From a virus: a DNA stretch of 21,947 bases. The DNA lies in IMG/VR virus record IMGVR_UViG_3300047557_000717, positions 1 to 21,947 of that record; one strand, given 5' to 3'. Positions 4,506 to 7,421 of the stretch are shown here, piece after piece (the first letter of the stretch is position 1; each line of letters opens with the position of its first letter). The notes beneath the pieces are model-generated. The model worked only from the letters and a program-made list of their open reading frames with translations. It had not been told where the DNA came from and made no database searches. A program made the translations under genes and the position numbers.

Positions 4506-5441
4506 TTAGGCGATCGAAGAAGACGACTCAATGCGGTACAGAGCCGGCTCGCGGTAACGAGCCCACCCCTGCAGTGAGTACCATCCAATCGGGCGGAACC
4601 TCATCAGGCGGTCCACGACCGGGCCGATCACGATGCCGGGCTCAACAGCGGTCGCCTCAGCGAGCGCCTGCTGGCCAGCAACAATCGTGCGGTACACCTT
4701 GATGCTGGAAGCACCATCGTTCGCCGTGAACGCACGAGGCGTCTCCACGAAGTACGCGCCGTGCATGACACCGACAACACCACCAAGGATGTTGCCGACG
4801 TTGCCCTCGGTGTACTTACGGATGTCATCGAACGATCCGCTCCCGGTCTCGGCACGAAGGTCGTGCGTAACCTCGGGATGCGCGTAGGCGGCGTACAGTT
4901 GGCCCTCACGAGGAACAGCCTTGTTCGCACGCAACTTCGCAACAACCTTACGGATGTCCGCAGCAGCGATCGTGTCCTCAGCGGCAACAGAGACCGTGGA
5001 GGTCGGGGTGGTGGAGCCACCCGTGCCGTACTCCACGTTCGTGCCACCCGTGAGAACCGTGTTGACAACAGCATCCAGGCTATCCGCCATGTTGAACGCC
5101 ACAATGTTGGCAACAGCCGGGTCGATGTCGCTGAACGCGAACTCGCCCAACTTGCGGGTCTGCAGCACAGTGTTGCCGTACTCGTTCAGAGTGACAGAAA
5201 CGGTGCTGATGTCCGACAGTGCCACCGCATCAGGATCAGTAGTCTCAGTGAGAGTGCTGGTCGCCGTAGCGAGGTCATTGTAGATGGAGAACACGACAGA
5301 CGAGCCGGGCATAGCCTGCTGCACAGGGCGCTTGTCCGCGAGGGAACGCATGAGCGGCTGAGAACGCAGAGCGAACTCAACGTAGCGATCATAGGCCGCC
5401 TTCACCAAGCCAGCGACAGCAGTAGTTGATGTATAAGCCAT
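4506..5441 (-). CDS. Major capsid protein (311 aa), N4-gp56 / P22-coat-like
   Basis: This is the main head subunit, which assembles around the scaffold into the icosahedral shell. The protein starts MAYTSTTAVAGLVKAAYDRY, followed by a helical N-arm with LMRSLADKRPV, and then a beta segment GSSVVFSIYNDL (47-58). DPDAVALSDISTVSVTLNEY (69-88), VLQTRKLGEFAFSDI, and a later segment with YAAYAHPEVTHDLRAE give the pattern I associate with the N4-gp56 family of coat proteins. The length of 311 fits. There is no protease upstream and no obvious cleavable propeptide. It follows the scaffold gene, has a perfect SD and a very stable 3' hairpin, all fitting the most abundant virion protein. Family naming is by pattern recognition, not by a search. 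Confidence 0.88.
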   Translation of the reverse strand: MAYTSTTAVAGLVKAAYDRYVEFALRSQPLMRSLADKRPVQQAMPGSSVVFSIYNDLATATSTLTETTDPDAVALSDISTVSVTLNEYGNTVLQTRKLGEFAFSDIDPAVANIVAFNMADSLDAVVNTVLTGGTNVEYGTGGSTTPTSTVSVAAEDTIAAADIRKVVAKLRANKAVPREGQLYAAYAHPEVTHDLRAETGSGSFDDIRKYTEGNVGNILGGVVGVMHGAYFVETPRAFTANDGASSIKVYRTIVAGQQALAEATAVEPGIVIGPVVDRLMRFRPIGWYSLQGWARYREPALYRIESSSSIA

Positions 5442-5486: not shown

Positions 5487-5987
5487 CTAGAAGGCGTCCG
5501 GACCTGACGTGGTACCGAAGATCACCTTGTTCAACTCCTCCGGCGAACGTGCCGAACGAATCAGCGCAGCCACCTGATCCGAGTCACCGTCAAACGGCTG
5601 ACCCGTTGCTTGAATCTGGCTAATCTGCGTAAGCCCCGACAGGTCGGGGCCAGCCTCACCGGAATCATCCAGCGGCTGCGACGGAGCACCACCGAAAATC
5701 TCGGCGTTCTCCTCAACCCAAGCCGACACTTCCTCCTCAGAAGTCATGTCCTCGGGAATGAACTTTGCGATCTTCGGGCTCAAGCCCTTAGCCGCGAGAA
5801 CATCCTTGACGCTACGTTCACGAGCCTGCTGAGCCAGCCCAGTAAGCCGCTCAGTCAACTCCTTTATCTGCTTCTCCTTCGCACGGTTCTGCTTACGCAG
5901 TTCCCGAAGGACGTTGTTATCGGAGCCGCGAGCGTCCCCGCCGAACTCGTCTTCGTAATCGTCGTAGTCGTCCTCAATGCCTGACAT
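5487..5987 (-). CDS. Scaffolding protein (166 aa)
   Basis: Likely internal scaffold that guides capsid assembly and then leaves the head. It lies directly upstream of the major capsid gene, the classical place. The N-terminus is very acidic (IEDDYDDYEDEF, 4-15). Residues about 26-60 are a charged predicted coiled coil (LRELRKQNRAKEKQIKELTE). The middle is acidic with TSEEEVSAWVEENAEIF, and the C-terminus (RSARSPEELNKVIFGTTS) is a short helical end that could bind the coat. Scaffolds diverge quickly in sequence, so the call rests on charge, coiled coil, size and position. The ATG has AGGGAG six bases upstream. Confidence 0.82.
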   Translation of the reverse strand: MSGIEDDYDDYEDEFGGDARGSDNNVLRELRKQNRAKEKQIKELTERLTGLAQQARERSVKDVLAAKGLSPKIAKFIPEDMTSEEEVSAWVEENAEIFGGAPSQPLDDSGEAGPDLSGLTQISQIQATGQPFDGDSDQVAALIRSARSPEELNKVIFGTTSGPDAF

Positions 5988-6103
5988 GGCACTCCCTAAC
6001 TGTTGGTGTGATGAACGCAGACCACAGAACCCACTGGGGGGTGGGGCTGGCTTCTGCTACCGGGCTCATACACATGCAGGGGCCGGTCGGTCCTGCTATG
6101 GAG

Positions 6104-6177
6104 TGGAGGTGCCAGGAATCGAACCTGGGTTGGCCATCGGCATCGTGTGCCTAAATGGCCCTTGCCAATTCACCCCC
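6104..6177 (-). ncRNA. tRNA-like element of non-canonical fold (74 nt)
   Basis: The two ends pair as a full seven-base acceptor stem (GGGGGTG with CACCTCC, one G-T pair) followed by a single unpaired A in the discriminator position. A perfect T arm precedes it (CCAGG-TTCGATT-CCTGG), including the GGTTCGATTCC box typical of tRNAs. CCA is not encoded. The inner 42 bases do not form a normal clover leaf. Competing helices are possible: TGGC/GCCA with a four-base loop as a stunted D arm, GGCCAT/ATGGCC, or TTGGC/GCCAA. One fit gives an anticodon loop ACACGAT (ACG, Arg) with C instead of U before the anticodon and a mismatched stem. It may be a degenerate tRNA, a D-armless tRNA or a tRNA mimic. It lies in a 255-base gap between two structural genes. 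Confidence 0.5.
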
Positions 6178-6179
6178 GA

Positions 6180-6195
6180 GGTCGCCTCAGCGACC
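6180..6195 (-). other. Perfect hairpin beside the tRNA-like element
   Basis: GGTCGC-TGAG-GCGACC forms a six-bp stem with a four-base loop, ending two bases before the acceptor stem of the tRNA-like element. The TGA in the loop is the stop codon of the micro-ORF upstream. It could pause ribosomes, help processing or simply insulate the tRNA-like fold. Confidence 0.5.
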
Positions 6196-6228
6196 GACGT
6201 GCCAGCGATACCAGTCGTAGGTATCCAA
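6187..6228 (-). CDS. Candidate 13-codon micro-ORF (TTG start)
   Basis: A very strong SD, AGGAGGA (6235-6241), lies six bases before a TTG that opens a 13-codon frame (LDTYDWYRWHVGR) ending at TGA in the loop of the adjoining hairpin. The SD begins right at the stop codon of the 392-aa gene and has no other start at a suitable distance. The peptide is rich in Tyr and Trp. It could be a leader peptide, a ribosome-loading decoy or a relic of a deleted gene. No homologue is known to me, and translation is not proven. Confidence 0.3.
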   Translation of the reverse strand: MDTYDWYRWHVGR

Positions 6229-6242
6229 GATGTGTCCTCCTA

Positions 6243-7421
6243 CTAAACGCCACCACCCGAGAGGGTGGAGGAAGTGGTGGCGGACTGCCCGGAGAACCGG
6301 GCCCGCTCACGGGACTGCAGACGCTTCGTGCGGTTACCGGCAGCCTGGTCGATACCGAACTCGCCCTTCACCACGTCACGGTCAGTGATCGCCTCGTTGT
6401 CGATAGCGGACAGGCGGCGCGTGGACCGGGCCGTGTCACCGATGTTCGTGAACTGGGCCCGCAGGGTCCGCTCATCACCGAACGTGAGGTCACCGATCTG
6501 CTCCGATAGGTCACGGCCCAAGTCAAGGCCCTGGCCGAGAGCAACGCCGGAGGCGAAGCCTGCGTTGACGCGGCGCTGCACCACCTCAAGGGCAGTCTCT
6601 GGTGCCAGCACGTAGCCGAGCATGTCCGACATGCTCGCCCCATACAGGGACACGAGACTGTTCTTGATGTTCACGTCAGCGTTGTCGATGACCTTCTTCG
6701 CCTGACCGATACGCCCATCCACCTCAGTGGCAGACACATCCCCACCGATCAACTTGGCCAGTTTGTCCCGGCTGAAATAGTCGGACGTAAGTCCGTACTT
6801 CCGCATCGTGGACTTGATCGCATCCTCAGCCGACAGATACTCAGCCTCACTGAGAGCGTTGTAACCATTCTTGATGCGATCTGCGTTACCGGAGAAACGC
6901 ATCTTGTAGGCGTCCGTCTGGCGCAGTTTGGACACGATGATGTTCTCGTTCGTGCCCCACTCACGGACCAGATCGGTCACAGTCGGGATGAGTTCTTCAA
7001 GCCCATACATGGTGAGCAGGCTCGTCAGATAAGCCGAGGCCGACTCACGATCATCCTTCTCGCGGGCCTCACGCTCCCGCCTCTCACGCTCAGTCTCGCC
7101 CGCGTCCTCAACCTTGACCAGTTGGCACGTGTCCGACACTGAGCCGTCAGCATTGACTATGTAGGAGCCCTGCCACTGGAAGCCCTGCGGGGCCGCACCC
7201 TTGACCTCAGAACACGCACGTGCCTGACCCTGGCCCTTGCCGGTATCCGTCACAGGCGGGTTGATAGAAACCCGCCCGTCTTGCCCCATCAGCCAACGGC
7301 CACTCGCGTCCTGATACCAGAAGAAACCAGGCGGTGCTTGATATGGAGGCTGGCTGGGCGTAGGTGCCGGTGTCGGTACAGGCTTAGGGGCTACAGGCTT
7401 CGGTTCTCTCTTCTTAGCCAC
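6243..7421 (-). CDS. Virion-associated protein with Pro-rich N-terminus (392 aa)
   Basis: The start is the GTG at 7421, with AGGGGG upstream and a two-base gap after the preceding stop. Residues 7-31 are Pro/Lys-rich and probably extended. Two short related motifs follow: GFFWYQDASGRWLMGQDGR with VS (32-52) and GFQWQGSYIVNADGSVS (80-96), with Cys at 70 and 99. Residues 107-127 are a highly charged stretch. From 128 on the protein is helical, with a segment near 141-176 (LEELIPTVTDLVREWG...KLRQTDAYKMRF) that resembles a segment of the upstream 413-aa protein. The C-terminus is Ser/Gly-rich. It is probably an internal head or ejection protein by position between the giant protein and the scaffold. 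No enzyme motif is visible. Confidence 0.65.
   Translation of the reverse strand: MAKKREPKPVAPKPVPTPAPTPSQPPYQAPPGFFWYQDASGRWLMGQDGRVSINPPVTDTGKGQGQARACSEVKGAAPQGFQWQGSYIVNADGSVSDTCQLVKVEDAGETERERREREAREKDDRESASAYLTSLLTMYGLEELIPTVTDLVREWGTNENIIVSKLRQTDAYKMRFSGNADRIKNGYNALSEAEYLSAEDAIKSTMRKYGLTSDYFSRDKLAKLIGGDVSATEVDGRIGQAKKVIDNADVNIKNSLVSLYGASMSDMLGYVLAPETALEVVQRRVNAGFASGVALGQGLDLGRDLSEQIGDLTFGDERTLRAQFTNIGDTARSTRRLSAIDNEAITDRDVVKGEFGIDQAAGNRTKRLQSRERARFSGQSATTSSTLSGGGV

Follow-up and report, generated by a model that had tools for sequence, protein, structure and literature searches.

The window, by which we mean the whole stretch of 21,947 nt analysed here (IMG/VR record IMGVR_UViG_3300047557_000717), carries on its minus strand a late operon encoding a terminase, a portal, a protein of 2138 aa, a scaffold-like protein and the capsid. 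Ahead of the scaffold gene lies a tRNA-like element of 74 nt. The features of this region are as follows:

4506-5441, minus strand: major capsid protein gene (phrog_1357, E 5e-76)
5487-5987, minus strand: putative scaffold gene (phrog_7813; weak match to the head-scaffolding phrog_3760)
6016-6096, minus strand: leader RNA of the scaffold gene, a neighbour separate from the tRNA-like RNA, with a pseudoknot and a long hairpin, beginning 7 nt past the element
6104-6177, minus strand: whole tRNA-like element of 74 nt, a putative tmRNA-like RNA consisting of the tRNA-like domain (TLD) only, delimited by the covariance model R1 and by its fold (z = -3.2)
6104, minus strand: discriminator base A73, an A in 71/71 sequences of the acceptor-unbiased set
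6105-6111, minus strand: 3′ strand of the acceptor stem, CACCUCC, positions 66-72; U70 at 6107 forms the wobble pair G3.U70, the one G-U of this stem
6112-6128, minus strand: T arm, CCAGG-UUCGAUU-CCUGG, 5/5 paired; the stem covaries and G53-C61 is invariant
6132-6138, minus strand: 3′ strand of helix P2, GAUGGCC, from fold and covariation
6139-6151, minus strand: P3 hairpin, GGCA-CACGA-UGCC, with a loop of the conserved CAYGA type
6154-6160, minus strand: 5′ strand of helix P2, GGCCAUU, pairing with 6132-6138; covariation at all 8 P2 pairs
6161-6170, minus strand: linker AAUUGGCAAG in place of a D arm, with a conserved GG found in 186/189 members collected
6171-6177, minus strand: 5′ strand of the acceptor stem, GGGGGUG, positions 1-7, G3 at 6175; 7/7 paired, pairs 4:69 to 6:67 covary in relatives
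6243-7421, minus strand: gene upstream of the element, function unassigned (phrog_8424)

As minus-strand DNA, the 5′ half of the element reads GGGGGTG AATTGGCAAG GGCCATT TA GGCA CACGA TGCC and the 3′ half GATGGCC AAC CCAGG TTCGATT CCTGG CACCTCC A; the RNA runs from 6177 to 6104 as GGGGGUG-AAUUGGCAAG-GGCCAUU-UA-GGCA-CACGA-UGCC-GAUGGCC-AAC-CCAGG-UUCGAUU-CCUGG-CACCUCC-A. In its minimum-free-energy fold, a single-stranded linker of 10 nt connects the acceptor stem to one long central hairpin, which is followed by the T arm. With -33.8 kcal/mol (z = -3.2), this fold was equalled in stability by none of 200 shuffles; the plus strand was unremarkable (z = -1.2). The first-pass annotation of this DNA had described a complete 7-bp acceptor stem, a discriminator A and a perfect T arm around a middle without canonical D and anticodon arms, and both statements hold: all 7 and 5 pairs form, A73 is present, ARAGORN called neither a tRNA nor a tmRNA in the window, and folds and covariation agree on one long central hairpin where the two arms are absent. 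It had also proposed two rival helices for the middle, of which GGCCAT/ATGGCC is the conserved, covarying P2, whereas TTGGC/GCCAA needs the linker, a segment that most relatives leave unpaired in constrained folds. The tRNA-like element is real.

The leader of the scaffold gene combines an H-type pseudoknot (ACCGG with CCGGT) and a long hairpin with a TTCCCC loop. In 25 relatives, its 21 pairs were 96% paired and 14 of them changed on both sides, a result reached by 0/500 shuffles. The leader is common to many of the relatives L001 to L058 (e.g. L007:5328-5416), and Rfam gave no match to it in the window. It is possibly a translational operator of scaffold and capsid. A leader of similar look was seen by eye in Streptomyces Beephvirinae. 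On the other side of the element, directly before it at about 6190-6240 (minus strand), lies a short open reading frame of 13 codons, LDTYDWYRWHVGR, with a TTG start after AGGAGG, which is absent from the relative L001.

Relatives at the same locus were gathered by their capsid protein, yielding 80 viral contigs. About half of them carry the same kind of RNA directly before the scaffold leader, and a scan for T arm and acceptor stem placed these elements at about -690 from the capsid start, with very different sequences. The covariance model R1, built from seven relatives with the window left out, found the window element at 6104-6177 (minus strand) at 60.1 bits and E 1.5e-12 in a search of 0.72 Mb; in all, 40 elements, that of the window included, passed E < 1e-4 there. 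Among the 30 distinct sequences of this capsid-locus set, 96.3% of the pair cells were standard and 18 of the 24 pairs changed on both sides. This covariation score was reached by 0/500 shuffles, and slid controls paired at 33-48%. Since the alignment was fitted to R1, these counts lean towards structure, and the covariation argument therefore rests on the size of the effect and on independent sets. The first-pass annotation had suggested looking for covariation in related phages; besides the 18/24 pairs seen here, 20/24 covary in a second set collected by a wide pattern (see below). It had further taken the acceptor/T half to be kept for recognition by tRNA enzymes and not for decoding, with the middle rebuilt, a notion that the covariation in relatives upholds, the middle being rebuilt but structured.

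A telling comparison is offered by L001, whose capsid protein is 98% identical. Compared with the window, its element is unchanged in the acceptor stem, in the T arm and in the first bases of the 3′ flank, and differs in the middle, which stays paired. To judge from these sequences, this is the pattern of a structured RNA changing under selection, not of a pseudogene. In two other loci, the match to the capsid gene (L033:6001-7198 and L200:6001-7182) spans about 250-280 nt more than elsewhere, possibly because of an intron or intein.

In this phage group, the position serves as a slot for tRNAs, and in the window the element alone occupies it. This follows from isolated Streptomyces relatives, in which an island of 14-21 canonical tRNAs occupies the same place and ends just before the scaffold gene, and from L016, L022 and L038, in which the element adjoins one canonical tRNA in the capsid operon (Tyr, Ile or Trp; 5027-5319 in L016/L022, 5141-5308 in L038). 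The element of L038 is misread by ARAGORN as tRNA-Pro. In L021 and L077, a canonical tRNA-Tyr takes the element's place. The first-pass annotation had held standard tRNAs at this place to speak against the element; they do occur in L021, L077 and the Streptomyces islands, but they do not refute it, because the element belongs to an independent and widespread family. The gaps of the Streptomyces Beephvirinae were considered as sites of hidden members and rejected, as they hold canonical tRNAs only. Several capsid relatives have no element or a degenerate copy, so the element is dispensable. Degenerate copies lie in L029 (upstream of 2412) and L031 (upstream of 412), with a GGAGAGU/ACUCUCC stem, A3-U70 and a TTCACGA T loop, and look like elements that have lost the alanine code discussed below.

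Two wide patterns were used to collect members from other loci. The first fixed A8, G1-G3/U70-A73 and the T arm and left the middle free; nearly all of the resulting stretches (at least 120) were recognised by R1 with about 30-98 bits, canonical tRNAs scoring at or below about 26. The second fixed the linker motif GGUUUCGAY, GGAC and the T arm, left the acceptor stem free and gave 103 stretches, and R1 recovered 99 elements in the 100 loci searched from it. In this second set, 20/24 pairs covaried (0/500 shuffles), and 94% of the cells were paired versus 39-48% in slid controls. The full tmRNA of L137 and rows of canonical tRNAs were removed from the pattern set, and L082 was left out of the counts. 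The family then comprises at least 189 distinct members in as many loci of unrelated phages, many of them in tRNA clusters, a number that is not an unbiased sample because the pattern scans carried sequence constraints. Members examined adjoin helicase, primase, RNA ligase, polymerase, capsid or endolysin genes. An ARAGORN tRNA lies within 1.5 kb in 41 of the 118 rows of the first-pattern set A5, which still includes some canonical tRNAs, and in 32 of the 99 rows of the second-pattern set A6.

In the common fold, a 7-bp acceptor stem leads into a linker of about 10 nt with GG, followed by an 8-bp P2, which an A-rich bulge separates from a short P3 hairpin, and by the T arm. A73 is followed by C74 in 185/189 members collected, and the full CCA is encoded in 44. 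When 84,980 species genomes were scanned with a linker and T-arm pattern, nine matches were obtained: four permuted cyanobacterial tmRNAs, three family members in metagenome-assembled genomes and two chance matches (L310, L316). Since so few members (three) were found there, the family looks phage-borne. We also considered whether a UAA or UAG in the bulge between P2 and P3 might supply a minimal tag with its stop codon, and rejected the idea, as the bulge is A-rich and holds no codon; UAR is present in 25/30 sequences of the capsid-locus group versus 55/89 and 40/70 in other sets, where A-rich bulges without UAR are common. A GOLLD RNA was observed at L129:1467-1882, about 540 nt from a family member on the same phage contig.

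The acceptor end of the family is highly constrained at specific positions. In the acceptor-unbiased set of 71 distinct sequences, pair 1:72 was G-C, pair 3:70 was G.U and base 73 was A without exception, and pairs 4:69, 5:68 and 6:67 each occurred with four or more pair types. G3.U70 was likewise present in 29 of the 30 distinct capsid-locus sequences, the exception being G3-C70 in L024/L025, and A73 in all 189 distinct members collected, although the search pattern required it for part of them. Alanyl-tRNA synthetase recognises its substrates, tRNA-Ala and tmRNA alike, by the identity set G3.U70 plus A73. Of the 378 distinct canonical tRNAs in the loci collected, G3.U70 marked 15/15 tRNA-Ala versus 6/363 others. 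By its bases, the family carries the alanine identity code. This invariant code and the tmRNA-type linker, and hence the kinship to tmRNA, were lacking in the first-pass annotation.

The best Rfam match of the window element is tmRNA (35 bits, E 2.8e-12), short of the gathering score of 47. In 20 sister loci, 17/20 elements passed the Rfam gathering cut-off as tmRNA with 50-80 bits, despite deletions of about 300 model positions; no element there was called tRNA. The tmRNA D-loop signature GG..UCGA/UUGA occurs in the linker of 44 of the 89 members gathered without a linker constraint; the window linker has only the GG of the GGAUUCGAC-like tmRNA D-loop motif, without UCGA, and that of L034 has GGATTCGAC. 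The invariant G3.U70/A73 and the tmRNA-type linker argue for kinship to the tRNA-like domain of tmRNA (ssrA, RF00023). The likeness covers the acceptor stem with G3.U70 and A73, the missing D stem and anticodon arm, the GG..UCGA linker in about half of the members, and the topology of acceptor stem, unpaired GG linker, P2, 3-4 nt and T arm. The window element itself has the 7-bp acceptor stem with G3.U70, A73 and the T arm of such a domain, and no D stem. However, it has no mRNA-like domain, which would bring a resume codon, a tag and a stop: only a 2-nt bulge and the 13-nt P3 hairpin lie between the P2 strands. The whole family, at 71-97 nt versus about 350 nt for tmRNA, differs from RF00023 in having no mRNA-like domain, tag or pseudoknots.

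A few known RNAs invite comparison. In two articles, Mycobacterium phage DS6A is listed as a "TLD only" tmRNA (PMC4131195, PMC11915505; citing Mao et al. 2009), and a similar molecule is described as a strong inhibitor of tmRNA, chargeable or not, perhaps by SmpB titration (PMC4131195; PMC11915505). Like the family, the DS6A RNA is phage-borne and has little beyond the tRNA-like domain, with the mRNA-like domain missing; it is a single reported phage case. The member in the window is set by itself within a late operon of structural genes. Judged by its description, the DS6A RNA likely belongs to the same family. tmRNAs without the mRNA-like domain (MLD) are also reported from organelles, namely jakobid mitochondria and Mallomonadaceae plastids (about 65 bp; PMC11915505); these are likewise tmRNA homologues reduced to the tRNA-like domain, but organellar and not phage-borne. 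The tRNA islands of Streptomyces Beephvirinae (Stella, FlowerPower, Manuel, Zeigle, Abafar) share the homologous place before the scaffold gene and differ in being canonical decoding tRNAs, with R1 scores of at most 25.5 bits. The stable RNAs C and D of T4 resemble the family as tRNA-cluster RNAs of unassigned function, RNA C ending in a T-arm-like hairpin; they were rejected as relatives, as they gave no match to the family model. We found no description of a broad phage class of such RNAs in the open-access literature, DS6A being the sole phage case found.

Given a covarying fold that is conserved widely in phages, carries the alanine code and lacks an mRNA-like domain, and given that many relatives have a tmRNA-type linker, we consider the element to be probably a working phage tool that acts on the host ribosome-rescue system, and not a broken tRNA. 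The reading that we favour, and hold with moderate confidence, is an alanylated, MLD-less tmRNA that would act on SmpB and stalled ribosomes and would damp or replace tagging. The product would be a small stable RNA, a tmRNA tRNA-like domain closed by its own hairpin, with neither an mRNA-like domain nor an anticodon. Host tRNA-processing enzymes would cut it out of the late transcript, CCA would be added to its 3′ end, and the host AlaRS would charge it with alanine through G3.U70. The charged RNA would bind EF-Tu and presumably SmpB and compete with host tmRNA at stalled ribosomes; late in infection, this might damp rescue by tagging or put in its place a form that leaves no tag and ends in drop-off or a dead end. 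Beyond the alanine code, the steps of this scheme are our inference; least certain among them is whether the RNA inhibits rescue or offers an alternative to it. Against the reading as a whole weigh the window's tmRNA score under the gathering score, its linker without UCGA and the several relatives that do without an intact element. Simple titration of SmpB does not explain the selection, because the published inhibition is independent of charging, yet G3.U70 is invariant. As the charging determinants are invariant although the published effect needs no charging, the RNA is probably taken into ribosomes, where nascent chains are transferred to it.

Other explanations have to be weighed against this rescue RNA. 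The first-pass annotation had raised the idea of a cleavage mark that separates the capsid mRNA from the long upstream message. In this view, RNase P and RNase Z/E would cut at the borders of the element and free a scaffold-capsid mRNA with a defined 5′ end at the structured leader. The conserved pseudoknot leader does begin 5-8 nt after the element's end in relatives, no promoter was predicted near the element, and tRNAs can fill the same place (tRNA-Tyr in L021 and L077, the island of 14-21 genes before the Streptomyces scaffold gene). However, G3.U70 and A73 are invariant though not known as needs of RNase P or RNase Z, most members lie elsewhere, by helicase, primase, RNA ligase, polymerase or endolysin genes, and the leader is kept in relatives without any tRNA or element. 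As the main function, such punctuation is thus unlikely; as a second role beside a rescue RNA, it is compatible with our reading. We regard it as less likely still that an alanine-charged RNA works outside rescue, be it as an alanine donor in a non-ribosomal reaction, as a decoy for tRNA-cutting defences of the host or through another host factor that reads the acceptor and T arms. The strict alanine code in a molecule without an anticodon arm, the location of part of the family in phage tRNA clusters and the co-occurrence with a full tmRNA in Streptomyces phage Jay2Jay would agree with such a role, but the tmRNA-type linker in about half of the members and the strong tmRNA model scores point back to rescue, and anticodon-loop tRNases would not recognise the element as a decoy.

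Two further alternatives are very improbable. The element might be one piece of a two-piece (permuted) tmRNA with its coding half elsewhere, considering that permuted tmRNAs share the linker and T-arm pattern and that a pseudoknot leader begins 7 nt downstream. Yet here a single strand of 74 nt closes both the acceptor stem and P2, as one strand also does in the other members, the permuted model scored 20 bits versus 47, no Rfam tmRNA coding part was found in 5700-6600, and the leader persists where the element is absent. The least credible alternative is a decayed tRNA or tRNA pseudogene, which the first-pass annotation had named as the plain alternative. ARAGORN indeed finds no tRNA, and two relatives (L029, L031) carry degenerate copies with A3-U70 and a changed T loop. 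Against decay stand at least 189 distinct members in as many loci, the middle of L001, rebuilt with intact pairing beside an unchanged acceptor stem and T arm, and above all the covariation in all four helices, which rules it out for practical purposes.

A broader and clearly more tentative proposal is that these RNAs form a large unrecognised phage class (at least 189 distinct) of alanylated, message-less tmRNAs that would take over rescue, the nascent chain being passed to alanine and released untagged; in this phage group, the RNA would in addition be joined to the 5′ end of the scaffold/capsid leader with its pseudoknot. Should the class prove general, a chargeable rescue RNA without a message would have been retained by phages time and again, and it would become a testable question why a phage would want ribosome rescue without tagging. 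Rescue of this kind might serve as a counter-defence, shield truncated phage proteins or help the phage to manage ribosomes at a late stage.

ARAGORN misses the family, and members lie unannotated in cultured phages such as Jay2Jay, so laboratory tests are possible now. The Jay2Jay member is located at 87505-87581 (L308:1506-1582), between tRNA-Val and tRNA-Leu, and the same genome encodes a full tmRNA at 97949-98231. This pair complicates plain inhibition, because an all-purpose inhibitor would hit the phage's own tmRNA; the actions of the two RNAs may be separated in time, or the small RNA may serve some purpose other than blocking tmRNA. Family members occur in 85 Streptomyces phage records, and many Jay2Jay-related Streptomyces phages match both the small-RNA region and the full-tmRNA region.
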